From an uncultured Gilliamella sp. (GTDB lineage: Bacteria; Pseudomonadota; Gammaproteobacteria; Enterobacterales; Orbaceae), in assembly GCA_946482005.1 (NCBI GenBank), contig CAMLPV010000004.1, forward strand, positions 1 to 64,000: a DNA stretch of 64,000 nt, in the 5' to 3' direction. This document shows positions 44,678-61,138 of this stretch, piece by piece. The position numbers and the translations under genes are program-made. Position 1 is the first letter of the stretch, and the number at the start of each line of letters is the position of its first letter. The notes beneath the pieces were generated by a model. It had not been told where the DNA came from, did not search any database, and was given only the letters and a program-made list of their open reading frames with translations.

Positions 44678-47323
44678 CTATCCTGAGTTACGCATACCTG
44701 CAGCAATACCAGAAATAGTGATCATTAATCCTTGTTCAACGCTACTATTTTCAGCCTCATTTCGATTACGCGAACGACTTAATAATTCAGCCTGTAATAG
44801 ATTTAGTGGCTCAATGTAGGTATTACGCAATGCAACAGATTCTGCAATCCAGGGTAGATCAGCCATCAAGCTGATATCATCGGTGATAGTAAGTACCGTG
44901 TTGATATCTTGAGTTAATAGGTTTCTTAACTCTTCTCCCAACGGCCACAAGGCTGGATCGACAAGCCTTTGCTCATAATATTCATGGATATTTGGTGCTG
45001 CTTTAGCATATACCATTTCGAGCATACCTAAACGTGCATTAAAGAAAGGCCAATTATGATACATGTCTTTAAGTAGATTTTTGTTACCTGCTTCAATAAT
45101 TTGTTTAAGTGCTGTTCCTGCACCAAGCCAAGAGGGAACCATCAAACGATTTTGTGTCCAAGCAAAAATCCATGGAATAGCTCTTAAACTTTCAATACCG
45201 CCACCTGTTCGTCTTTTTTGTGGACGAGAACCGAGTGGTAATCTACCTAATTCAGTTTCTGGCGTTACCGCTCTAAAATAATCAACAAATTCAGAACGTT
45301 CACGAATGTAACTGCGGTAACAATGACAAGAGATATCCGACATTTCGTCCATAATATCTCGCCAGTCCTGTTTAGGTTCAGGAGGTGGTAATAAATTCGC
45401 TTGCAAAATGGCTGATGCGTATAACATCAAGCTACTGAGAGCCACTTCAGGCAAACCGAGTTTAAAACGAATCATTTCACCTTGTTCGGTGACTCGAAGT
45501 CCTCCTTTTAATGATCCTGGTGGTTGTGACAATAATGCAGCATGTGCAGGCGCACCCCCACGACCAATTGAACCACCACGACCATGAAATAAAACTAAAT
45601 TAATATTATATTTTTCGAATAATTTAACTAACTCTTCTTGTGAACGATACTGAGCCCATGATGCAGCAAGCGTTCCAGCGTCTTTAGCTGAATCAGAATA
45701 GCCGATCATAACCATCTGCTTACCATGAATCTTTTCGCGATACCATGGAATATCAAGCAGTTTTTGCATAACAGTCTTAGCATTATTTAAATCGTCTAAG
45801 GTTTCAAATAATGGTGCTACAGGAATCACTTTTTGACAGTCAACTATTTTTAATAGTAAGTAAACAGCCAAGATATCTGAAGGTGCTTTGGCCATTGAGA
45901 TCACATATGAAGCAATGGATTCTTCACCTGCTTTTTTAATAACTCGACAGGTATCCAAAACTTCTTGAACCATTTCATTTGGTTGCCAATGGTAAGGTAA
46001 CAGTGGACGATTTGATTGCAGTTCAGTTAACAAAAAATCTTGTTTTTCTTCTTCTGACCACTCAGCATAACTGCCTAAGTTAAGTTCTTTGGTTAATGCA
46101 TCTAGCGCTTCAGTGTGCACGGAACTATCTTGACGAATGTCTAATCTAACCAGTTGTAGACCAAAACTTTTTATACGTCGTAAAGTATCAAGCAATGGTC
46201 CGTGTGCAATCGTTGACATGCCATTTTCGATTAATGATTCATAACACGTATAGAGTGGCATCCATAATTGTTCGTTTTTAATTAAAATATCCGCTGGAGG
46301 TAATACTTGTTCATTATTTAATAATGACACTATAAAACTGTGGGTTTTTACTAAACGTGCGCGCAATTGTTTCATTACCGCGCGATAAGGTTCAGTTGCT
46401 GTTTTATTATTTTCATCTAATAGATCAATGACAGATTGACTGCACTCAGTCATGGATAATTCACGAACCAGAATTTGAATATCCGCTAAAAAAAGCTCAA
46501 TTGCTTTTAATCTGGCTTGCAACATGACTTTTTCAGTCACTTTTGCTGTTACATTAGGGTTGCCATCGCGATCACCGCCCATCCACGAAGTAAATTTAAT
46601 TGGAACGTGCTCAACAGATAATTGTTCATTAAATGCATCGACTAACTGATCATTAAATTCACGCAAGAAAAGTGGTACACCTTCCCAAAGACTATCTTCA
46701 ATAACCGAAAAGCCCCATTTAGCTTCATCAAGTGGTGTTGGTCTTTTTTTACGAATCTCATCAGTGTACCATGCTTGACAAACTAACTGTTTTAAACGGC
46801 GCATAATTCGCTCTATTTCATAATCAGCTAAATCGTCATGATCAAGTTGCGATAAACAGTTATTAATCGCAGTGTACGTATTTATCATAGTTCGACGATT
46901 GATTTCTGTAGGGTGTGCAGTTAACACAAGTTCAATCGAAAGGTCATTAATGGCTTGAGTAATCGTCTGATTTGAGAAGTTAAGATTTTTTAACGTACTA
47001 AATAGTTCTGTCATTTTTTTGGGGCTGCTTGATGCTTCACCATGAGGGGATATTCCATAATATTCTGCCGCGGTGTTAACTAAATTCAAGAACTGATTAA
47101 ATGCACGCGCCACATGTAATAAATCTTCATCGTTAAGATTTTCAATGAGTTTAAGTAATTTATTATGAGCTTGCTGATTACCTTGTTGAGCTGATTTTGA
47201 TAATTGTCTGATTTGTTCAACTAAATCAAAAGTATCATTGCCTGCTGCCCGTTTAATTGCATCACCTAGTAAAGTACCTAGCATATTGACGTTGCTTCGC
47301 ATAGAGGAATATTCACTGTTCAT
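44678..47323 (-). CDS. ppc: Phosphoenolpyruvate carboxylase
   Basis: An 881-residue PEP carboxylase (E. coli 883). Catalytic histidine in VLTAHPTE (near 138), the [10 protein letters not shown] block (near 243), the [13 protein letters not shown] loop (near 580) and the invariant C-terminus ending AGMRNSG are all present. It makes oxaloacetate from PEP and bicarbonate, feeding the citrate synthase-aconitase-ICDH operon of this window. Intact at full length. Divergent from nuoJ across a 350-base A/T-rich gap. Confidence 0.97.
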
Positions 47324-47674
47324 TATCTTCTCGTTTTTATCTTTATTAAGTCAAAACAAACTTTAAGCTGCCTAATGAGCATGACAATTTAAAGGTGTTG
47401 GGATAGATGTTAGTTAATGTGCTTAACTTATACACTTTATAACAATACTATATTGAATTTAAATCATAAAATTTTATAATTTTTATTTTTTTTAAGGTTT
47501 TAATTATATTTGTCATATTTTATTGATTGATAAAAACAAAATTTTCTATCATTTTTTAACCAAATTGCATTTTTTTATGTTTGTTTTCTGTTAACACAAT
47601 GTCAGCAAACTGTATCTTGATATGATTTGGGTATATACTAACAAAACTATAAATGCATATTGGATTATTATTTG
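47324..47674. other. Gap between ppc and nuoJ; no nuoA-I remnants
   Basis: About 350 A/T-rich bases hold the divergent promoters of ppc and nuoJ. I looked on both strands for fragments of NuoA-NuoI and found none; the gap has no open frame of note. Confidence 0.6.
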
Positions 47675-48166
47675 ATGCTTATTGTTTTCTATATTGCGTC
47701 GATTATTGCGGTGTTTGCCGGTATAAAAGCAATTAGTTGCTTACGTGTTGATAAGGCTCTTTTGTACTTTATGGTTTCACTTTTTTCTTCGGCCTTAATA
47801 TTTATTTTGCTTGATGCCTATTTTTCTGTTGTTTTATACATTCTATTATTTATTGCTGGCACAGTGACTTTGTTTCTATCTGTTGCCATTGTATTGCGAA
47901 TTCGTATAGATAATGTTGAAAATAGGAAACGAGGTATCAGCCCTAAAATTTGGTTAGGGCCTTTAGTCTTAGCATTTATTTTACTTGTTGTTCTTATTTA
48001 TGGTGTAGTTAGTACTGACTATTCACAGCTCAACGAGTCGCATGAATTGATGCACGAAATGTCAGTATATGCTTACATTTTGATATCTGAACTCGCTGGT
48101 TTTTTATTATTAGGTGCAATTGTGATCTCTTATCATTTTATGCATCGACTCTTGTCGGAGAAGTAA
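47675..48166 (+). CDS. nuoJ: NADH-quinone oxidoreductase subunit J homologue
   Basis: A 163-residue membrane protein with about five segments, aligned to NuoJ from its first residues (FYIASIIAVFAGIKAIS against the E. coli start). The signature segment of NuoJ transmembrane helix 3 (VYAGAIMVLFVFVVMML in E. coli) is changed to LFIAGTVTLFLSVAIVL, so the hallmark is lost. Translation probably starts at the ATG at 47675; TTG codons at 47660 and 47672 are alternatives and none has a good ribosome site. It heads the nuoJKLMN unit; nuoA-I are absent. nuoK starts 1 base after its stop. Confidence 0.82.
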   Translation: MLIVFYIASIIAVFAGIKAISCLRVDKALLYFMVSLFSSALIFILLDAYFSVVLYILLFIAGTVTLFLSVAIVLRIRIDNVENRKRGISPKIWLGPLVLAFILLVVLIYGVVSTDYSQLNESHELMHEMSVYAYILISELAGFLLLGAIVISYHFMHRLLSEK

Positions 48167-48167
48167 T

Positions 48168-48470
48168 ATGATTCCTCTTATGTATAGCCTTATTCTTGCC
48201 TCAATTTTATTTGTGATAGGTTTATTAGGGGTAATGATTCGACGTAATCTCTATTTTTTGTTACTAAGCCTTATGATTATGAATAATGGTGCTATTGTTG
48301 CATTAGTTTCTGCAGGTAGCTATTGGCAACAATCGGAAGGAGAACTCCTTGCTATTTTAGCGGTGATTACTGTATTAGCTCAAGCCTGTGTAGGACTTGC
48401 GTTGCTTACGAAATTAATTTATCGCCGAAAAATCTTTAACATTGATTCACTGAGTGAAATGAAAGGATGA
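48168..48470 (+). CDS. nuoK: NADH-quinone oxidoreductase subunit K homologue
   Basis: A 100-residue protein with three membrane segments, the same length as E. coli NuoK and clearly homologous from end to end (MIPL start, RRNL, AGSYW, IDSLSEMKG end). However, the two buried glutamates that NuoK needs for proton pumping, E36 and E72 in E. coli, are methionine (codon 48273-48275) and glutamine (codon 48381-48383) here. GGAG lies before the ATG and the stop overlaps the nuoL start (ATGA). A pumping-competent complex I would not be expected. Confidence 0.9.
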   Translation: MIPLMYSLILASILFVIGLLGVMIRRNLYFLLLSLMIMNNGAIVALVSAGSYWQQSEGELLAILAVITVLAQACVGLALLTKLIYRRKIFNIDSLSEMKG

Positions 48471-50314
48471 ATTTACTTTACTTAACTATTATTATTCCCT
48501 TGCTGTCTTTTTTATTGCTAGTTTGCTTGGGTAGACATCTTCGACCGATTAATGTCATGATTATCGGTTTTAGTACAATGCTAATAACAAATCTTATTAC
48601 TATGTTTACCTGTATTGATTTTGTAAAAAACACAGTACCGGATATGTTGTTAGTGTACAGCAGACCATTATGGACTTGGTTTTCAGTTGGGGATTTTGTC
48701 GTACCTTTATCATTAACATTAGACGGTTTATCGTTAACTTTCTTAGTGATAATTGCCTTTTTGGGATTACTAATTTATTTCTTTGCGGCAAGTTATTTAA
48801 CATCAAAAAAAGATGTTTATACTTTTTATGCCTATAGCAATTTATTAATCGCGAGTATGTTAACCATTATATTGGTTGATAATCTATTGGTTATGTTAAT
48901 TGGTTGGGAGGGTGTGAGTATAAGTACTTACTTACTTATTGGCATCTATTATAAACAATTGCGCAATGGTTATGCTGCCGTTAAAGCTTTTGTGCTTATG
49001 CATTTAACGGATATCTTTTTAATCATTGGTGTATTTTTACTTTATCAAACTTTAGGTACTTTAAATATACGTGATATTTTAACCCAAGCTCATGATAATT
49101 TAGCGATTGATTCCGATATTATCTTTTGGATCACATTGATGCTATTTTTTGGTGCCATTAGTAAGTCTGCTCTTTTTCCAATGCAATCTTGGTTTGTCGA
49201 AACAACATTAGCGCCAATGCCTGCAGTAGCTTTAATGCAATCATCTACTGTCATATTATCTGGTGTATACTTGATTTTAAGATTAAGTAACTTGTTTATC
49301 ATGTCTAGTGATACGTTAGACATCATGACTATTTTCGCTTCGTTGACAATCTTATTTGCAAGCTCAATTGCCTTAGTACAAAGTGATGTTAAACGAATTA
49401 TAACTTATATTAATTTAGCTCAAATTAGTTATTTGTTTTATGCTTTTGCAACTCAAAGTTGGTGGTTATCGCTTAATTGTTTAATTAATTATGTTATAAC
49501 CAGTACTTTATTAATTTTAGCATCGGCAATATTACTCAAAAAATGTCAAGGTGAGCGAAATATTAATAAACTCGGCGGACTTGCAAAATCATTTCCAGTT
49601 CTCTATGCCATATTTTTGATTATTATGTTATCGTTAAGTGCGATTCCTTGGATTTCAGCTTCATTTTATATTAAAGGTGATATTATTTGGGGATTAATGA
49701 TAAAAGAACATTTAATGGCAGGAACGATAGGTTTATTAGGTATTTTGCTATCGAGTTTAAGTATTTGGCGCCTAATTTTTATGGTCTTTTATCATAAACC
49801 AAAAATTGCTGAATTTGCGAAAACTAAATGGATTAGTTATTGTCCAATTTTTATCTTACTGATATTTACAACGGCCATTTTTATCTATTTCCCAATACCA
49901 GCTCAAAATATTATTCCAATTGCCAAACTGGATACTAGTAGTCTGTTATCGTTTCAATTATTGTTAGCAGCAGTAACCATATTAAGCTTTGTTATTGCTT
50001 ATATTTTTTATGCACACCCAAATAGTGAAGTGCAAGAGGTATTAAATACGCCAATCGTTAAATTTATCGTAAGATTATGTAATTGCGATTGGCGATTTGA
50101 TTATTTACTGAATATCATTTTTGTAAAACCTTATGTGTATTTAGCGAACATGCTTAAAAAAGATCCACTGGCGATATGGGACAATTGGATTATGTTGGGC
50201 ATAAAAAAAATAAACTCATATATTGTCAGCTTAGAAAATGGGCATATTCGATGGTATATGGTATCTATTGTTATAGGTAGCATTATTATATTAATGTTAC
50301 TGGTTTTTATTTAA
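48467..50314 (+). CDS. nuoL: NADH-quinone oxidoreductase subunit L homologue
   Basis: A 615-residue antiporter-like subunit (E. coli 613) with about 16 membrane segments and the lateral helix at the C-terminus. The TM5 glutamate (GWEGVS), TM7 lysine (SKSALFPM) and TM12 lysine (ASFYIKGDI) are kept. The TM8 histidine is glutamine, and in the TM10-11 segment the conserved His and Lys (HLMTHAFFK in E. coli) are Cys, Tyr and Ser. Translation overlaps nuoK by four bases. The frame is intact. Confidence 0.9.
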   Translation: MNLLYLTIIIPLLSFLLLVCLGRHLRPINVMIIGFSTMLITNLITMFTCIDFVKNTVPDMLLVYSRPLWTWFSVGDFVVPLSLTLDGLSLTFLVIIAFLGLLIYFFAASYLTSKKDVYTFYAYSNLLIASMLTIILVDNLLVMLIGWEGVSISTYLLIGIYYKQLRNGYAAVKAFVLMHLTDIFLIIGVFLLYQTLGTLNIRDILTQAHDNLAIDSDIIFWITLMLFFGAISKSALFPMQSWFVETTLAPMPAVALMQSSTVILSGVYLILRLSNLFIMSSDTLDIMTIFASLTILFASSIALVQSDVKRIITYINLAQISYLFYAFATQSWWLSLNCLINYVITSTLLILASAILLKKCQGERNINKLGGLAKSFPVLYAIFLIIMLSLSAIPWISASFYIKGDIIWGLMIKEHLMAGTIGLLGILLSSLSIWRLIFMVFYHKPKIAEFAKTKWISYCPIFILLIFTTAIFIYFPIPAQNIIPIAKLDTSSLLSFQLLLAAVTILSFVIAYIFYAHPNSEVQEVLNTPIVKFIVRLCNCDWRFDYLLNIIFVKPYVYLANMLKKDPLAIWDNWIMLGIKKINSYIVSLENGHIRWYMVSIVIGSIIILMLLVFI

Positions 50315-50331
50315 TAAAGGTGTAATCACTC

Positions 50332-51876
50332 ATGTTGTTATGGCTTGTTTTTTTACCTGTTATAGGTGGATTTATTAGTTGGTTATGCCATGTATTTTTA
50401 TTGCGGATTGTAAGATCCTCTCGAATGGTATCGCGTTGGTATCAATTACCGATGATTATTGCTTTCATGACCATTTTTATAACTTTATTGTTATCACTTA
50501 GCTTATGGCAAGAAGGGATAACTGTTTTACAGCAAGGCAATAATTGGAAAGAAGAAGTTAATATTGAGTGGATTCCTTTGCTTAATATTCACTTTCATTT
50601 AGTCTTAGATGGCTTATCCTTAGTTCTAATTACCTCAACTTTATTTATTGTGTTACTAACGATTGGTTATTCAAGTAAAGAAAGCCCTAACAATTTTGGT
50701 TTATTTTATTTATGCATTTTATTTATGACATCTGCCATTATGATGTTATTTGTCATAACCGATCTATTTTTAATGTTCTTTTTTTGGGAAGCAGTGGCAA
50801 TACCGATCTATTTCCTAATTTCTTTATGGGGAAGGCGAGACTCAAATTCTCAATTACGTTTTAATGGAGCAAGTAAATTTTTAATTTATACTCAAATTAG
50901 TAGTTTACTGATGTTAATTTCAATTGTTTCATTGGCTTTAATTAACTGGACTTTATCTGGCCATTGGACATTTGATTACCAAGAACTAACCAAAACACCT
51001 ATTTCAAGTTACACAGAATTTATGTTAATGTTAGGTTTTTTAGCCGCCTTTATTATACGTATTCCGTTTGTACCTTTTCATAGCTGGTTTATTGATGCGC
51101 ACATTGAATCATCAACTACAGGTTCAATGATGATAAGCGGATTATTACTCACAACCTCGACATTTGGTTTGTTACGTATTGTTATTCCGCTCTTTCCTAA
51201 TGCTTCAGTTATGATTATGCCGTTAATTATGATCATGGCACTTCTTACGGTTATCTATTCGGCATTACTGACATTTATTCAAACTGACATTAAAAAATTA
51301 ATTGCTTATGTACATATTGCTTTAATGGGATTTGTAACTGCAATTATCTATAGTGGTTCTGTTATTGCTTATCAAGGCATTGTAATACAAATGATTGCTA
51401 TTAATTTAGTTATCGTTGGCATGTTTATGATTAGTGGCTTGTTAGTAGAATGTTATTCAACACGCAACATTAATCAATTTACAGGTCTTAAACAACAAGT
51501 ACGCTATATCTCTTCTTTTACCTTATTTTTTATGTTAGCAATTTTAGGTATTCCGGGCACAGCTAATTTTGTTGGAAATTATATGATGTTGCTTGGCAGT
51601 TATTCATCGTTTTCATCTTATACAATTTTGCTTGTTGTTGGTCTATTACTATTGTCTATTTCTTTTATTATTCGGATGCAACCTATATTTTATGGCATTG
51701 TTGAAAAAAACTGTGTAACAAAGCATCAACTTGATAAAAGAGATATTTTGTTACTTGCTAGTGTATTTATTGTACTTGTCTTTATTGGCTTATATCCGCA
51801 AATAGTTTTAGATATGTCTTATTCTGTGGTGAATCAAACACAGCAAAATATAACTGCAGAACGAGTAGGAGAGTAA
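50332..51876 (+). CDS. nuoM: NADH-quinone oxidoreductase subunit M homologue
   Basis: A 514-residue antiporter-like subunit (E. coli 509), about 14 membrane segments. The TM5 glutamate is kept (FFFWEAV), but by alignment the other channel residues are changed: K234 is Arg (AFIIRIPF), K265 is Thr (GLLLTTSTFG), H322 is Leu (HIALMGF), H348 is Ile (QMIAINL) and E407 is Asn (FVGNYMM). The remaining sequence is well conserved (ALTSMQTDIKK-like TFIQTDIKKLIAY). An intact frame with so many losses at functional sites suggests a changed role. Confidence 0.9.
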   Translation: MLLWLVFLPVIGGFISWLCHVFLLRIVRSSRMVSRWYQLPMIIAFMTIFITLLLSLSLWQEGITVLQQGNNWKEEVNIEWIPLLNIHFHLVLDGLSLVLITSTLFIVLLTIGYSSKESPNNFGLFYLCILFMTSAIMMLFVITDLFLMFFFWEAVAIPIYFLISLWGRRDSNSQLRFNGASKFLIYTQISSLLMLISIVSLALINWTLSGHWTFDYQELTKTPISSYTEFMLMLGFLAAFIIRIPFVPFHSWFIDAHIESSTTGSMMISGLLLTTSTFGLLRIVIPLFPNASVMIMPLIMIMALLTVIYSALLTFIQTDIKKLIAYVHIALMGFVTAIIYSGSVIAYQGIVIQMIAINLVIVGMFMISGLLVECYSTRNINQFTGLKQQVRYISSFTLFFMLAILGIPGTANFVGNYMMLLGSYSSFSSYTILLVVGLLLLSISFIIRMQPIFYGIVEKNCVTKHQLDKRDILLLASVFIVLVFIGLYPQIVLDMSYSVVNQTQQNITAERVGE

Positions 51877-51882
51877 TAACTT

Positions 51883-53820
51883 ATGATAGCATTATCGCCT
51901 ATATTTATAATAAGCTTGACTATCATTGTTTTGCTTATCTTATTAGTTTTCTTAAAAATAAATACAAAAACATGCGCCTTGATAACCATATGTGGTTTAG
52001 GATGTGCGTTAGCCTGTGCTATTACCATTGGCTACAATATTTCATCTAGCACCCAAATGATTACTAATATTAGTAATGATAATATGCAAATGTCAGACAA
52101 TTCTGATTCTGATGCATCAACTCAAGACGCTGCGCTTTCAAATGAAAAAACTATTGCAGTAGATGCTGTTCCAACTGAAACTGGTGCCTCGTCTAATGAA
52201 AATAGTGTTAATTCGCAAGTTGATACCAAGACCGAAAATAATAATACCGAAATTAATACTAATTCAGGAGCCAATACTAATACTGAAGCAAATACTAACA
52301 TTAATAGCGAAACAAATACTCATTCAGAAACCAGCACTAATAATGAACCTAGTACTAACATTAATACCGAAACGGGTACTAATACTGTAACGAACGCTAA
52401 TACCGAAGCGAGTACTCCTGCTGAAAGTAATGCTAATACTGATGCGACGACTATGACGGTTGATAGCAATAAAAATGATATCAATCCACAAACAGATTCT
52501 TCTGAAGAATACTGGAAAGCTCGTCAAATCACTGCACTTTTTACCTGTGATGGTTATGGATTATTATATACTAGCTTAATTTTAATTATAGCCATTACCG
52601 TATCTAGTTTGGCTTATCGTTGGTTTGTAGAAGAGCATTTACCTCATGGTCTTTTTTATGTCATTTTATTGTTTATGACCTTGGGTGGTATAACGCTAGT
52701 GTATGCTAGCCATTTAATTGCATTGTTTATTGGTATTGAATTGCTTTCAATACCTTTTGTCGGATTAATAGGATATCAATATATTCAAACGCACTCATTA
52801 GAAGCCGCCGTTAAATATATGATTTTATCGGCTGTGGCGAGTGCATTTTTATTAATGGGAATTGCTTTTTATTATGCGTCAACAGGCGAGCTTACTTTTA
52901 GTGGTTTAAGTTATCAACTCTCAACGATGTCTTATCCAAGTAATTTATTACTAATGGGAGTTTGTTTAATACTCGTTGGTATAGGCTTTAAACTATCATT
53001 GGTTCCATTTCAGCTTTGGTTACCTGATGTTTATCAAGGTGCGCCTACTGTTGTGGCCTTACTATTATCAACTGTTGGTAAAGTTGCATTATTCTGTGCT
53101 ATTGCAAGATTGTTTTTATTGGCACCGATTGTTAATAATGAAACCATTCGTATGATTTTGGTCATGATGGCCTTTTTGTCTATTTTATGGGGTAATTTAG
53201 TCGCGTTAATGCAAACCAGTTTGAAACGGTTGCTTGCTTACTCCTCAATTGCACATTTCGGGTATTTATTGATCGCTTTAATCTCTGTTCAATATCAAGT
53301 ACTTGCTTTAGAAACCATTGGTGTCTATTTAATCGGTTATATTTTGGCAAATATCTGTATTTTGGGTGTTATTAGTCTAGAGTCTCATTCAAACGAGCTG
53401 CAAGATCATGAAAACGAAGTTGACCTCTCAGGCCTATTTTGGCGTAGACCGATATTAGCATTAACCATGGGAATAGGCTTATTATCATTAGCGGGGGTTC
53501 CGCTTACAGCAGGCTTTGTAGGTCGATTTTTACTGGTATTATTAGGTGTCACTGCGGAATTGTGGTGGTTGATAGCCGCTGTAGTAATAGGTAGTGCATT
53601 AGGACTCTATTTCTATGCACGTTTGATAATCAATCTTTATATCAGACCAACTTATCGCGATGATCAATTGCTAAACAATCCAGTAATTAAATTGAAATGG
53701 CAAGATATAAAAACAAGTGAACTTATTATTGGTTTATCTGCACTATTAATTTTGATTTGCGGCATTTATCCAAAATGGTTATTCAACTTGGTAAGCATGG
53801 CGCAATACTTAACAACCTAA
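51883..53820 (+). CDS. nuoN: NADH-quinone oxidoreductase subunit N homologue, with large insertion
   Basis: A 645-residue protein, about 160 residues longer than E. coli NuoN (485). The two first membrane helices (about 8-52) are followed by an Asn/Thr/Ser/Glu-rich low-complexity segment (53-210) in the periplasmic loop, then the usual 12 helices. Channel residues are mostly kept: TM5 Glu (LFIGIELLS), Lys in LEAAVKYMI, Lys in GIGFKLSLVPF and Lys in TVGKVALF; the His next to the third Lys is Gln and the last Lys is Arg. AGGAG lies 10 bases before the ATG. Last gene of the unit. Confidence 0.9.
   Translation: MIALSPIFIISLTIIVLLILLVFLKINTKTCALITICGLGCALACAITIGYNISSSTQMITNISNDNMQMSDNSDSDASTQDAALSNEKTIAVDAVPTETGASSNENSVNSQVDTKTENNNTEINTNSGANTNTEANTNINSETNTHSETSTNNEPSTNINTETGTNTVTNANTEASTPAESNANTDATTMTVDSNKNDINPQTDSSEEYWKARQITALFTCDGYGLLYTSLILIIAITVSSLAYRWFVEEHLPHGLFYVILLFMTLGGITLVYASHLIALFIGIELLSIPFVGLIGYQYIQTHSLEAAVKYMILSAVASAFLLMGIAFYYASTGELTFSGLSYQLSTMSYPSNLLLMGVCLILVGIGFKLSLVPFQLWLPDVYQGAPTVVALLLSTVGKVALFCAIARLFLLAPIVNNETIRMILVMMAFLSILWGNLVALMQTSLKRLLAYSSIAHFGYLLIALISVQYQVLALETIGVYLIGYILANICILGVISLESHSNELQDHENEVDLSGLFWRRPILALTMGIGLLSLAGVPLTAGFVGRFLLVLLGVTAELWWLIAAVVIGSALGLYFYARLIINLYIRPTYRDDQLLNNPVIKLKWQDIKTSELIIGLSALLILICGIYPKWLFNLVSMAQYLTT
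52237..52443 (+). repeat. Asn-Thr repeat tract inside nuoN
   Basis: A tract built from variations of the six-base unit ACTAAT / AATACT encodes NTN, NTE, TNT and INTE motifs (about residues 119-187). It is the core of the 158-residue insertion in the loop between helices 2 and 3 and is probably unstable in length. The tract is in frame and without stop codons. Confidence 0.85.
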
Positions 53821-54009: not shown

Positions 54010-54342
54010 ATGGACTTTTTAATCTCTAATGCTTATGCTGCTGATGGCGCTACAGTTGAAAATAATCCTTATTTCTTACCTATCATGTTAGTTGTATTTG
54101 GTTTGTTTTTCTATTTTATGATTATGCGCCCACAACAAAAACGTGCTAAAGCTCATCGTGACTTAATGGCTGCTATTTCTAAAGGTGATGAAGTATTAAC
54201 TAATGGTGGACTTATTGGTCGAGTAGCAAAAGTTAACGAAAATGGTTATATTGCGTTAGAATTAAATGATTCAACCCAAGTTGTGATCAAACGTGACTTT
54301 ATCACATCTGTTTTACCAAAAGGGACAATGAAATCACTATAA
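54010..54342 (+). CDS. yajC: Sec translocase accessory subunit YajC
   Basis: A 110-residue protein with one membrane segment (about 23-40) followed by the MIMRPQQKR signature and a small cytoplasmic domain (GDEVLTNGGLIGRV). It binds SecDF. AAGAGGA lies before the ATG. It starts the yajC-secD-secF unit; queA and tgt, which come before it in E. coli, are not present. The 189-base gap upstream contains the promoter. Confidence 0.95.
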   Translation: MDFLISNAYAADGATVENNPYFLPIMLVVFGLFFYFMIMRPQQKRAKAHRDLMAAISKGDEVLTNGGLIGRVAKVNENGYIALELNDSTQVVIKRDFITSVLPKGTMKSL

Positions 54343-57395: not shown

Positions 57396-57471
57396 GGGGC
57401 CATAGCTCAGCTGGGAGAGCGCAACGCTGGCAGCGTTGAGGTCAGGGGTTCGATCCCCCTTGGCTCCACCA
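57396..57471 (+). tRNA. tRNA-Ala (anticodon GGC)
   Basis: A full cloverleaf with encoded CCA; anticodon GGC at 57429-57431. A P4-type integrase gene starts 183 bases downstream, so the 3' end of this tRNA gene is the likely attachment site (attL) of an integrated element that runs to the right. Confidence 0.96.
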
Positions 57472-57593
57472 ATTCAATAAACAGTAACATTCTTTTAAAC
57501 TCTTTAAAACACATAAAACCCAACAAACACAAGGCTTAAAGTCTATTTTATTATTCATTAAGCACCAGTAAGGTACATTTACAACCAGAATTT

Positions 57594-57647
57594 TTAGGTA
57601 TATGCTTAGGTATACGAATACAATATACCTAAAAACCGTATACCTAA
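57594..57647. repeat. Four TTAGGTATA repeats upstream of the integrase
   Basis: TTAGGTATA occurs at 57594-57602 and 57606-57614 and as its exact reverse complement at 57624-57632 and 57639-57647, i.e. two direct copies facing two inverted ones, ending seven bases before the integrase ATG. They may be integrase arm-binding sites or an operator at which the integrase or a regulator represses its own gene; the arrangement is seen, the role is inferred. Confidence 0.75.
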
Positions 57648-57654
57648 AATCATT

Positions 57655-58905
57655 ATGGCAAGAAAGACTCTACCATTAACCGACACACAAATAAAAGCAG
57701 CCAAGCCAAGAGATAAGGATTATTCTTTGTTTGATGGTGGCGGTATGTATCTTTTAATCAAAGCAAATAACTCTAAGATTTGGCGTTTTAAGTATACGCG
57801 CCCGTATACCAAAAAAGGGGCATTAATAAGTTTTGGAAGTTATCCCGAAGTTTCACTACAGCAAGCAAGAAAGCTAAGAGATGAAGCGCGAGAACTCATT
57901 AAACAAGGCATAGATCCTCAAGAACATAAAGCCGAATTAGAACAGCGCAAGCAAGACGAAATAAGCAGTACATTTAAAAAGGTAGCTACTGACTGGTTTA
58001 AAGTTAAGAGTGGTAAGGGATTAACAGAGAGCACGCTAAAAAGAACGTGGGAATCATTAGAATTACACATATTTCCTTATATTGGTAATAAATCTATTTT
58101 TAAATTAAAAGCTAAAGATTTTATTCAAGCAATGGCTCCGTTAAGAGCGAATGGAAAACTAGAAACCATTAAAAGACTTTGTCAACGAGTAAATGAAATC
58201 ATGTTTTACGCTGTCAATATTGGCTTAATTGATGCCAACCCTGCCGCCAAGATAAAAGATGCATTTGAAAGCCCTACAAAAGGACAAATGCCAACAATCA
58301 AAGCACAAGAACTACCCGAATTTATGCAAGCCTTATCTATCGCTAGAGTCGAATTACAAACACGTTGCGTTATTGAATGGCAATTACTAACTATGACCAG
58401 ACCAAGTGAGGCAGTTAGTGCGAAATGGCAGGAAATTGACTTTAATAATTGCTTGTGGGTAATTCCTGCTGAAAAAATGAAGATGAGAAAAGAACACACA
58501 ATCACATTAAGTAAACAAGCTATTGCGATATTATCTATTATGAAACCTATTACAGGTCACAGAGAGCATATATTCCCAAGTATGAAACCCCCTTTTAATA
58601 CCCCGATGAGCGCAAGTACAGCGAATATGGCAATTAAGCGAATGGGATATAAAGATAAGTTAGTGGCGCATGGATTAAGAGCTTTAGCGAGCACAATACT
58701 AAACGAGCAAGGCTTTGACCCTAATGTTATTGAAGCCGCGCTCGCTCATGTTGATACTAATAGCGTCAGGCGAGCCTATAACCGTGCTACTTACCTAGAA
58801 CAGCGCAGAATTATGCTTGACTGGTGGGGTGACTTTGTCGAGCAAGCAAGTAAAGGGAATGTCTCATTGTCAGGTAACCGCAATTTAAAACTTGTTAATC
58901 ATTAA
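57655..58905 (+). CDS. Tyrosine-type integrase, P4 family
   Basis: A 416-residue site-specific recombinase. The N-terminal arm-binding domain (DUF4102 type: LTDTQIKAAKPRDKDYSLFDGGGMYLLI) is at 1-90, a core-binding helical domain at about 100-190, and the catalytic domain carries Arg in TRPSEAV (near 244), HGLR (near 340), the histidine in ALAHVD and the nucleophilic tyrosine in AYNRA (near 383). It inserts the element into tRNA genes. AATCATT stretches precede the ATG without a strong ribosome site. The frame is intact. Confidence 0.94.
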   Translation: MARKTLPLTDTQIKAAKPRDKDYSLFDGGGMYLLIKANNSKIWRFKYTRPYTKKGALISFGSYPEVSLQQARKLRDEARELIKQGIDPQEHKAELEQRKQDEISSTFKKVATDWFKVKSGKGLTESTLKRTWESLELHIFPYIGNKSIFKLKAKDFIQAMAPLRANGKLETIKRLCQRVNEIMFYAVNIGLIDANPAAKIKDAFESPTKGQMPTIKAQELPEFMQALSIARVELQTRCVIEWQLLTMTRPSEAVSAKWQEIDFNNCLWVIPAEKMKMRKEHTITLSKQAIAILSIMKPITGHREHIFPSMKPPFNTPMSASTANMAIKRMGYKDKLVAHGLRALASTILNEQGFDPNVIEAALAHVDTNSVRRAYNRATYLEQRRIMLDWWGDFVEQASKGNVSLSGNRNLKLVNH

Positions 58906-58964
58906 CTCTATCTAGATACCGTCACTCAAATTTGAGTTATTCACTTCAATAACTTCATATTAAG

Positions 58965-58990
58965 CCTCCTCATATCTGAGGGCGCTTTTT
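58965..58990 (+). terminator. Hairpin after the integrase gene
   Basis: CCTCA pairs with TGAGG around a TATC loop, extended by further pairs on both sides, and a TTTTT run follows. It lies about 60 bases behind the integrase stop. Short stem; moderate support. Confidence 0.5.
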
Positions 58991-59071
58991 CAAATGTCAC
59001 CCTTTATTTACCCAGTCATTAGGCTGTTTTTATGCTTACCTCCCCATAATCTTAAACTTTTAATATAAAGT

Positions 59072-59186
59072 GTTCACTACTATTCACCAACCTTATATTA
59101 ATTTATATATATTAATATATTATATACTTATTATATATATTTTTTGGTGTTCACTAGTATTCACTACTGTTCACTACTATACACAT
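59072..59186. repeat. 10-base phased iterons around an A/T-only tract
   Basis: The sequence (G/A)TTCACTA recurs at exact 10-base steps: 59072 and 59082 in one group, 59149, 59159, 59169 and a worn copy at 59179 in a second. Between the groups is about 55 bases of almost pure A/T. On the other strand the unit reads GTGAACAGTA, close to the P4 alpha-protein iteron core GGTGAACAG. Iterons beside an A/T-rich tract suit a replication origin of a P4-like satellite; no primase gene is seen nearby. Origin function is inferred. Confidence 0.55.
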
Positions 59187-59887
59187 TATTAAAATAATCT
59201 TGATCCTGTAATTAACTAATTGAAATATAAATATATTTAGATAGCGTTATTTTCTTATTAAAATAAAATAATTATTAATCAATATTTTAAGTTAGGATGA
59301 TTTTAAGGTTGATCCAGAGATATTATTAGAGGAAAAGAATAAATGCTCTATGGTGATTTCCACCATGCAGGTATTACATTTGCAATCTGCTAAAAAGTCA
59401 GCAGGTTTATTACATTTATTCGAGTTACTCAACCATAGCTATTTGGTTACCCATTTAGTAATAGCAGTCAAAAAAATTATTTCAATTCGCGGTTATACGT
59501 ATAAATGGGGACGGGTGATTTTTAGGATGCTTCGTTATGAACTTTTGACCCACCCTCCCAGCTATAAGGATTGTCACTGTGTGAAAAGAAACCAATATTT
59601 ATAAGCTGTAAAGATTTTATTGATATCACTATGGGTACAAAAAGCACCAAAAAGCCCTGTTGTAAAGATATTTTTAAAATTCTTCTCTTGGCTAGGTTAT
59701 AGTTCCTTGAGTCCATAAAAACAGAGCGCAATTTTGCGCCCTTTGATTTTATTGATAAAAAGGCAATAGATAACTTAGCAGTAATTGCTTACATTCATTT
59801 ACACAAAAAACCAGATTAATACAGCTATATTGTATAAACTATATACATGTTCACAATGGATATAATGCCACAATGTGAGGATGTAGT
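59187..59887. other. 700 bases without a confident gene
   Basis: The region between the iterons and the PAAR gene has only weak reading frames: 59350-59604 (84 residues, plus), 59522-59731 (69 residues, minus) and a 23-residue frame at 59631-59702 that begins MGTKSTKKPCC. None looks like a known protein. A palindrome with a GCGCAA stem sits at 59726-59739. The sequence just before 59888 contains the PAAR gene's promoter and ribosome site (GAGGATG). Confidence 0.4.
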
Positions 59888-61138
59888 ATGAGTAAGCAAG
59901 TAGCTATTTTGGGTGATGCAACTAATTATGGTGGTAGGATTATCACGGCGTCAGGTCAGGGGTATAGTGATGGTGCTCAAATTGCTCTATTAGGTGATTT
60001 AGTTTCCTGTCCTAAATGCAATAGCACAGGCAGAATTATAGAGGGAGCAGACAACTTTATTATCGATGGTAAACCCGTTGCCTATGATGGCTGTATTGTT
60101 GCGTGTAAATGCTCGCCTGTTGGTGGTCATAGGATTTTAGCGTTAAAAAGCACTATGTATGTTGGGGTCGGTAGTGGTGGTGGCTCTGTTCAATCGAATT
60201 CGTTTGCAGGTAATCAAAAACAATTGAGTTCCGCGAATGATGACCAAAACAATTTAATTAGAATTGACGCGCGCCGTTTATTACAATGCGCTGATGAATT
60301 ATGTGAAAAGCACTTATATCATGATGATATTAAGCAGGCGTTCAAGCAAGAAGTCGAAGCGTTTGCTAATGATATTGTTGAAAAGGTAGACAGCGGTACA
60401 ATGACGTATGAGCAAGGCGCTGAAAAAATCAAGAAAGAAGAAAAAAGCCTGAAAGAACAAGCGTTTAAGTGGCTAAAATATGGGCTGTCTATTTTTGGTG
60501 GAGCGGGATTAACTGAGGCAGGAGTCGCCCTTTGTTATACGGGATTGGGATGCATTATCGGCGCACCAATGATAGCTCATGGATTAAACGGCATTTATGA
60601 GGGTAGTGCAGGCGTTGTTAATAGTGTAATGAATGAAATTGATGGTGGGGATCGTAGTGAAGAAGTAGATGGTCCACTAAGAGAATTATATAAATCTGGC
60701 GCTGAGGCACTGGGATTTGATGCATCAGTAGGTAGCATAGCCTATGATATAGCTGATCTGAGTGGATCATTGTATAGTAAATTAAAATTAGTGCCAAAAA
60801 TAACAGAAATTGGAACGCCAATAAAAAAATTATGGTACTACGGACGTCAGGATTTAGTTAGATATTATACAACAATGAAAAAAGCAGCTTTGGGCGCTGA
60901 GATAGTCTCTGATACAATTTCATTGGGGACAATTATTACTAATGTTGTAAATACTTTCATTTATGATAAAGAGAATGATCAGCCAGCTTTAGTGGTTCCT
61001 GAACCAGAGAAAATCACAAATGTAGGTGAATTAGCGGATAGCTGTCAAATAGTTATAGTTATCACATTTGCTGATGAAGAACCGCCACACTATTATTTGT
61101 GTACGCGCCCTAATGGGGAACAATATAAAATTGAATAA
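59888..61138 (+). CDS. PAAR-domain type VI effector with DUF4225-like C-terminus
   Basis: A 416-residue protein. Residues 1-90 form a PAAR domain (start SKQVAILGDATNYGG, with a metal-type CPKC and CKCSPVGGHRIL), which caps the type VI secretion spike. A low-complexity linker (about 95-115) is followed by a helical region with a hydrophobic, glycine-rich stretch (GAGLTEAGVALCYTGLG, near 200) and an end that resembles DUF4225 proteins (GPLRELYKSGAEALG, LVRYYTTMKKAALGAEI). The C-terminus is therefore probably a membrane-acting toxin, but its activity is not known. A small membrane-protein gene follows by 15 bases. No type VI structural genes are in the window. Confidence 0.83.
   Translation: MSKQVAILGDATNYGGRIITASGQGYSDGAQIALLGDLVSCPKCNSTGRIIEGADNFIIDGKPVAYDGCIVACKCSPVGGHRILALKSTMYVGVGSGGGSVQSNSFAGNQKQLSSANDDQNNLIRIDARRLLQCADELCEKHLYHDDIKQAFKQEVEAFANDIVEKVDSGTMTYEQGAEKIKKEEKSLKEQAFKWLKYGLSIFGGAGLTEAGVALCYTGLGCIIGAPMIAHGLNGIYEGSAGVVNSVMNEIDGGDRSEEVDGPLRELYKSGAEALGFDASVGSIAYDIADLSGSLYSKLKLVPKITEIGTPIKKLWYYGRQDLVRYYTTMKKAALGAEIVSDTISLGTIITNVVNTFIYDKENDQPALVVPEPEKITNVGELADSCQIVIVITFADEEPPHYYLCTRPNGEQYKIE

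Follow-up and report, generated by a model that had tools for sequence, protein, structure and literature searches.

An orphan nuoJKLMN operon of Orbaceae may encode a redox-free ion-transport complex derived from the membrane arm of complex I

A 64,000-nucleotide stretch of an uncultured Gilliamella sp. (Gammaproteobacteria, Enterobacterales, Orbaceae; GenBank assembly GCA_946482005.1, contig CAMLPV010000004.1, positions 1 to 64,000; hereafter the window) carries nuoJKLMN, five genes of the membrane arm of respiratory complex I, without nuoA to nuoI. It was found that this orphan operon is conserved in Orbaceae and kept by purifying selection, and that residues on which coupling in complex I depends have been lost in all 42 species with the operon. 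As far as searched, the NADH module and the NuoH and NuoA of complex I are absent from 44 Orbaceae genomes. Thus, the operon does not encode complex I. What does it encode? With a little under an even chance, the five proteins constitute a stand-alone, redox-free membrane complex, which would serve as a secondary ion transporter centred on NuoN. Somewhat more tentatively, I suggest a case of backward evolution, in which a redox-free ion-transport complex arose from complex I, with the NuoN channel kept and the other two silenced, and was retained in all five genera of insect-gut Orbaceae examined. The original prediction, made from the window alone, was that of a possibly repurposed membrane module. 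It stands in that the genes are kept by selection and are not complex I; the new role, like the joining of the five proteins into one complex, the transport of ions and its direction, is what I infer from the sequences.

Results

Structure of the operon

In the window, nuoJKLMN lies at positions 47675-53820 as five intact open reading frames (ORFs) on the plus strand, in the order J-K-L-M-N (Table 1). The genes are closely spaced, with 1 base between nuoJ and nuoK, a 4-base overlap of nuoK and nuoL, 17 bases between nuoL and nuoM, and 6 bases between nuoM and nuoN. The original prediction of a tight unit of only these genes, next to a divergent ppc, was therefore borne out. All five frames were also said to be open and translationally coupled; they are open, but because of the spacing the term coupled is literal for nuoK and nuoL only and does not apply to the other junctions. 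Each of the five products was assigned to its own Nuo family by Pfam and NCBIfam. NuoK, NuoM, and NuoN lie above the curated NCBIfam cut-off, while NuoJ and NuoL fall short of it and are therefore called recognisable but divergent.

Table 1. Features in and around the nuoJKLMN operon of the window (residues in Escherichia coli numbering)
Feature	Position	Strand	Remarks
ppc, divergent upstream neighbour	44678-47323	-	351 bases from nuoJ
ppc/nuoJ intergenic gap, 351 bases	47324-47674	.	No nuoA-I remnant by tblastn
nuoJ-like, 163 residues	47675-48166	+	PF00499, 5e-11; strongly diverged; complex-I Tyr59 is Phe; the mechanical ORF begins at TTG 47660, while ATG 47675 agrees with relatives
nuoK-like, 100 residues	48168-48470	+	Glu36 to Met (codon 48273-48275); Glu72 to Gln
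nuoL-like, 615 residues, full length	48467-50314	+	Retains E144, D178, K229, K399; lacks H254, H334, H338, K342, D400 of complex I; an acidic residue directly follows position 400
nuoM-like, 514 residues	50332-51876	+	Retains E144; K234 to Arg; K265 to Thr (codon 51151-51153); H322 to Leu; E407 to Asn (codon 51577-51579)
nuoN-like, 645 residues	51883-53820	+	Retains E133, K158, K217, K247; K395 to Arg
NuoN insertion, low complexity, rich in Asn/Thr/Glu/Ser	52054-52518	+	About residues 58-212, between helices 2 and 3
yajC, downstream neighbour, followed by secD and secF	54010-54342	+	

Distribution of the operon

Is the orphan operon common in Orbaceae and elsewhere? NuoM is present in 42 of the 44 Orbaceae genomes, and so is NuoJ, with all 39 genomes of at least 90% completeness among them; completeness is 59% and 74% for the two that lack these proteins. 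The 42 genomes represent one genome per species and five genera. In every one of them the operon keeps the order J-K-L-M-N on a single strand with open frames (210 of 210 genes), with no additional gene inside. The upstream neighbour is ppc in 34 genomes, and the operon is intact in the eight others. The downstream neighbour is yajC in 38; in one of the remaining four the contig ends there, and the operon is intact in the other three. Since the gene order is kept where ppc or yajC is not the neighbour, the operon has been retained despite altered surroundings. A comparison of gene order in related Orbaceae, proposed together with the original prediction, thus found J-K-L-M-N conserved throughout.

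A scan of named genomes gave 30 loci, 28 of them from Orbaceae: Gilliamella, Orbus hercynius, Frischella japonica, Zophobihabitans entericus, Candidatus Schmidhempelia bombi, and two records named Orbaceae bacterium. The other two, non-Orbaceae loci found by Orbaceae NuoM motifs (L134 and L136), were rejected as orphans because their clusters are ordinary nuo clusters that contain NuoG, NuoH, and NuoI. In Ca. Schmidhempelia bombi Bimp, nuoJKLMN is intact (locus L133, 7209-13450), in contrast to a passage of PMC11325843 that mentions a lack of nuo genes in this strain.

In an order-level survey of 295 genomes, NuoJ was above the cut-off in 106, namely 22 Orbaceae and 84 others. A complex-I-type NuoH accompanied it in all 84 non-Orbaceae genomes versus none of the 22 Orbaceae, two of which (G039 and G040) have a weaker, hydrogenase-type NuoH match. 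In a phylum-level survey of 348 genomes, a NuoH match was present in all 298 other NuoJ-positive genomes and was lacking only in the genome of the window, the sole Orbaceae member drawn; this count comes from two lists read side by side, whose totals are 299 and 301. In G471, G543, and G603, which are among the 298, both proteins match weakly and may not belong to complex I. In these two surveys, the orphan-arm state was not seen outside Orbaceae.

Search for the missing subunits

The original prediction held that subunits A to I are missing at the locus and that the gap upstream of nuoJ has no remnants. Searches (tblastn) with E. coli NuoA, B, CD, E, F, G, H, and I agreed with this. None matched below an E-value of 0.09 in the gap or below 0.6 in the whole window, where J to N were all recovered. 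None matched at 1e-3 in the 41 other Orbaceae operon loci with their flanks, either.

Are the missing genes located elsewhere? The genome assembly of the window comprises 2.5 Mb in 34 contigs and is 81% complete. No match to NuoF or to the NuoD and NuoH models was found in it, nor to a composite query of NuoA, B, E, and I, which had no positive control. NuoF was absent from all 44 Orbaceae genomes, 39 near-complete ones among them (the search control matched in 9 of 14 genomes); for NuoG and NuoC, no genome-wide search was made. The NuoA and NuoE parts of the composite query, likewise without a positive control, found nothing in the 44 genomes. Matches to NuoD, NuoH, NuoB, and NuoI were confined to the same five genomes (G012, G013, G031, G039, and G040), where the NuoD- and NuoH-type matches sit in hydrogenase-4-type clusters. 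The G040 cluster is hydrogenase 4, with HyfB, HyfD, and HyfF models above their cut-offs. Family models were run on six ORFs of this cluster and one ORF of G012, and the other three genomes were judged by match pattern. In these five of 44 genomes, the hydrogenase-4-type cluster occurs in addition to the orphan nuoJKLMN. The hydrogenase large subunit PF00346 is absent from the genome of the window and from 38 other Orbaceae genomes.

A search for other NADH dehydrogenases had also been proposed; for ndh, encoding NADH dehydrogenase II, it was positive in 43 of the 44 genomes, the exception being the incomplete assembly of the window. E. coli NhaA, NhaB, and RsxD, included with Ndh in one composite query, gave no match at an E-value of 1e-10 or lower in the 44 genomes, with query parts that had no positive control and with other antiporter families not searched. 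If this result is real, Orbaceae are devoid of these usual Na+/H+ antiporters.

Fate of the coupling residues

I aligned the 42 Orbaceae J-N sets with E. coli and with 20 complete nuo operons belonging to other families in Enterobacterales. Among the positions inspected, E407, K265, H322, K399, K395, D400, and NuoK E36 and E72 are named in PMC9271201 and PMC13324432, and NuoJ Y59 in PMC7419157. NuoK E36 and E72, NuoM K234, K265, H322, and E407, NuoL H338 and K342, and NuoJ Y59 are invariant in the 20 complete operons.

The glutamate at NuoK position 36 is replaced in all Orbaceae by Met (22), Ile (15), or Val (5), while position 72 is Glu in 25 and Gln in 17. In NuoM, K265 has become Asn (31), Thr (6), Ser (4), or Gly (1), and three replacements are uniform in the 42 sequences: H322 to Leu, E407 to Asn, and K234 to Arg. 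NuoM E144 is retained in all 42. According to a passage of PMC9271201, K265, H322, and E407 form a proposed proton route of NuoM; all three are gone in every Orbaceae sequence. In NuoL, H338 is Tyr in all 42, and K342 is Ser in 40, Thr in one, and Ile in one. Position 400 of NuoL, which is Asp in 14, Glu in five, and Trp in one of the complete operons, is Gly in 41 Orbaceae and Ser in one. NuoL retains D178 (42 of 42), K399 (41), K229 (40), and E144 (39). Tyr59 of NuoJ is Phe throughout Orbaceae. NuoN, in turn, retains E133, K158, K217, and K247 in all 42, with K395 replaced by Arg in 41 and by Gln in one. In all 42 species, the complex-I chain of lysines and glutamates is thus kept in NuoN, apart from K395, and has lost members in NuoM and NuoL. 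Changes at NuoL H254, NuoK E72, and NuoL E144 are limited to certain Orbaceae lineages.

Next, columns with the same residue in at least 20 of 21 complex I sequences were taken as invariant, and each was scored as kept when unchanged in at least 41 of the 42 Orbaceae. The number kept was 41 of 49 in NuoN, 48 of 93 in NuoM, 31 of 110 in NuoL, 6 of 12 in NuoK, and 2 of 14 in NuoJ. In NuoM, four of five pathway residues were lost versus 13 of the 88 remaining invariant columns (p 0.004, Fisher's test), the pathway list having been taken from an excerpt of PMC9271201 after the losses had been observed.

Selection and origin

Is the operon decaying? The ratio of nonsynonymous to synonymous substitution rates (dN/dS) was calculated by the Nei-Gojobori method for pairs with a dS of 0.05-1.0 only; the pairs are not independent. 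The median was 0.156 for nuoJ (197 pairs), 0.082 for nuoK (138), 0.099 for nuoL (64), 0.077 for nuoM (73), and 0.075 for nuoN (72). The highest value of any single pair was 0.42, in the short nuoK. The medians of neighbouring genes were 0.038 for ppc, 0.064 for secD, 0.038 for secF, and 0.106 for yajC. The constraint on J to N is weaker than that on the best-kept neighbours and is far from neutral. The uninterrupted frames, these low ratios, and the order kept amid changed neighbours argue against decay. Thus, the expectation that dN/dS of J to N is below 1 was confirmed, and there is good support for the view that selection keeps the genes.

In a tree of concatenated J-N sequences, the 42 Orbaceae form one clade (support 1.0) on a long stem. 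In the initial tree, they stood beside the long-branched L094, whose genome is about 350 kb; after removal of L094, their sister clade comprises nine sequences, E. coli included. This position fits vertical descent of the Orbaceae genes from an ordinary nuo operon. Since the residue losses are common to all 42 species, they would most simply date to the Orbaceae ancestor.

A long loop in NuoN

NuoN is 553-693 residues long in the 42 Orbaceae versus 485 in E. coli and 479-507 in 19 of the 20 complete operons; the remaining sequence (L105, 667 residues) has an over-long ORF start and no loop. The extra length is a low-complexity insertion, after which the similarity to E. coli NuoN resumes at residue 213 (E. 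coli residue 60). Presumably, the loop faces the periplasm, as judged from the topology of complex I. Close relatives differ in length: the window NuoN has 645 residues, while those of G015, G003, and G032 have 663, 693, and 621. Repeat-like Asn/Thr/Glu units account for this variation, and the reading frame is preserved in every case. The AlphaFold2 models, built for NuoN from 16 and for NuoM from 15 Orbaceae sequences, are poor (mean predicted local distance difference test scores, pLDDT, of 46.9 and 51.8). The insertion shows no structure (pLDDT about 27) in a NuoN model that is poor throughout.

Other features of the window

Between positions 47300 and 54020, promoter-like matches were not in excess (38 versus 39.3 in shuffled sequences), and there were seven terminator-like matches versus 3.5 in shuffles. 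Further downstream, a tRNA-Ala gene (57396-57471) is followed by a tyrosine-type integrase identified by eye (57655-58905), and then comes a gene (59888-61138) whose protein opens with an apparent PAAR repeat domain. The segment from 57396 to 61138 is probably an integrated element carrying a secretion-system tip or effector gene.

Discussion

A redox-free membrane arm

How might such an operon have arisen? The NADH and quinone modules would have been lost in the Orbaceae ancestor. The coupling chain would have been dismantled at NuoK E36, the receiver of the charge signal, along the NuoM exit path (K265, H322, and E407), and at the central H338 and K342 of NuoL. Purifying selection would then have maintained the remaining arm in a new role that is independent of redox chemistry. 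A proton or a monovalent cation might take a path through NuoN, with NuoM, NuoL, NuoJ, and NuoK as partners, in a manner that is Mrp-like in principle. With NuoH, NuoA, and the quinone module missing, nothing would drive the arm by redox chemistry, and the loss of NuoK E36 removes the known entry point of the charge signal. Secondary ion transport appears most likely because NuoN keeps the buried charges E133, K158, K217, and K247 together with Arg395, and because the gate ion-pair residues are retained in NuoM (E144 with R234) and NuoL (D178 with K229). As stated in part of PMC4938563, isolated NuoL, and NuoN under some circumstances, can substitute for MrpA and MrpD in Bacillus subtilis. Thus, redox-free ion movement is possible for such subunits.

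Several points weigh against a selected transporter centred on NuoN. According to an excerpt of PMC3046159, mutation of E133 in E. coli NuoN hurt complex I less than mutation of E144 in NuoL or NuoM; its authors grant that NuoN may fall short of full function in proton translocation. This result disfavours a NuoN-centred channel and slightly lowers its odds. One complete channel at most is left, because the NuoM and NuoL paths look broken. Parts of the operon may be decaying, since NuoJ is weakly conserved and sites continue to be lost from NuoL in certain species (E144 to Gln or Val in three of 42, K229 to Arg in two, and K399 to Glu in one). For J to N, dN/dS is roughly double the value of ppc and secF. 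Some substitutions are conservative (K234R and K395R), and the enrichment of lost pathway residues is not significant for NuoK (p 0.45), NuoL (p 0.72), or NuoN (p 0.16). E407 alone is not decisive, because the E407K mutant of E. coli NuoM is still assembled and retains pumping, at a reduced ratio, as described in an excerpt of PMC9271201. Finally, the Mrp cation site has not been restored, with Phe in NuoJ for MrpA Glu706 and no His in the window NuoK.

Alternatively, the proteins may move no ions in a coupled manner and serve the membrane in a structural or regulatory capacity or as a controlled proton leak. The loss of the central NuoM and NuoL residues and of the NuoM exit path would suit such a scaffold, to which the new NuoN loop could bind something, and the doubt expressed in the excerpt of PMC3046159 about NuoN's own share in pumping points the same way. 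The four NuoN residues kept in all 42 species, however, are not obviously needed by a pure scaffold, and I consider this explanation rather unlikely.

Could the arm instead have been re-docked to an unrecognised electron- or energy-supplying partner encoded elsewhere? Complex-I-like arms join different redox modules, and related arms pair with hydrogenase or F420H2 modules. Membrane-bound hydrogenase (MBH) is described in part of PMC7419157 as an arm combined with a different redox module. The hydrogenase-4-type cluster of five Orbaceae might be taken for such a partner. However, it is absent from the other 39 genomes, and the hydrogenase 4 examined has its own NuoL/M/N-like subunits. With NuoK E36, which receives the signal, and the chain of NuoM lost in every species, and no extra gene within any operon, re-docking is unlikely.

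A third explanation has already been published: a passage of PMC11325843, citing earlier work, reports the orphan nuoJKLMN of Gilliamella and other Orbaceae and suspects a remnant. On this account, the genes are a functionless leftover of complex I after genome reduction. The catalytic half is indeed gone, NuoJ and NuoL are strongly diverged, and frdCD, the membrane anchors of fumarate reductase, are reported there as a further membrane part that Orbaceae have kept as an orphan. The selection data contradict it: all 210 genes from the 42 species are open, dN/dS is 0.08-0.16 and far from neutral, the replacement residues are fixed across five genera, and the NuoN loop lengths are always in frame. 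Plain decay was rejected, and a functionless remnant is improbable.

The fragmented state of the window genome would leave room for an ordinary complex I split into two loci or hidden by an assembly gap, but intact nuoA-I elsewhere in the genome, which the original prediction named as its refutation, was sought and, NuoG and NuoC apart, not found in the genome-wide searches above, and the lack of NuoF in near-complete genomes, the confinement of NuoD and NuoH to hydrogenase-4-type clusters, and the changed coupling residues make this practically out of the question.

If the proposal of a redox-free, NuoN-centred transporter is true, Orbaceae possess a natural derivative of complex I that consists of the membrane arm only. 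The history of complex I is usually told as that of an antiporter that acquired a redox engine, and here would be the reverse case. An engine-less, rewired arm would separate the residues for coupling from those for ion movement. The Orbaceae pattern, in which NuoK E36 and the NuoM chain are dispensable and the NuoN set is kept, makes a testable statement about the long-debated role of antiporter-like subunits without electron transfer. In any event, the data argue against the published remnant reading.

Comparison with known systems

The arm of hydrogenase 4 or formate hydrogenlyase (HyfBDF) also has NuoL/M/N-like subunits, but it belongs to another subfamily, has its own hydrogenase module, and does not occur in the window genome. 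The operon was therefore rejected as a hydrogenase arm: PF00346 is absent from this genome, and hydrogenase 4 is a separate cluster with its own subunits.

Mrp (CPA3) antiporters are redox-free, as the Orbaceae complex would be. According to an excerpt of PMC7419157, their core subunits MrpA-N, MrpD, MrpC, and MrpA-C correspond to NuoL, NuoM/N, NuoK, and NuoJ. In contrast, MrpB, E, F, and G are not in the Orbaceae operon (the comparison covers the operon only, with no genome-wide search). NuoJ has Phe at the position of MrpA Glu706 (NuoJ Y59) in all 42 species, and the window NuoK has no counterpart of MrpC His37 and His40. NuoM matches the Mrp structure 6z16_A at 7e-24 versus 1e-116 for E. 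coli NuoM. With the cation-site residues absent and the sequence match weaker, membership in the Mrp antiporters was rejected.

The orphan nuoJKLMN in the passage of PMC11325843 is the identical operon in the same family; a remnant is proposed there, whereas selection, residue fate, and phylogeny were tested here. Among the titles and abstract openings listed from the open-licence literature, none reported that these genes had been tested for selection or analysed residue by residue.

The closest known system is complex I (NDH-1) itself. Orbaceae differ from it in that no NuoA, NuoE, NuoF, or complex-I-type NuoH was found in them, in that NuoK E36, NuoM K265/H322/E407, NuoL K342/H338, and NuoJ Y59 are missing from all 42 species, and in that NuoN bears a long loop. 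In contrast, the five genes J, K, L, M, and N stand in the identical order, the best matches among solved structures are E. coli NuoM and NuoN (both 1e-116), and the Orbaceae J-N sequences are sister to the E. coli-like nuo clade.

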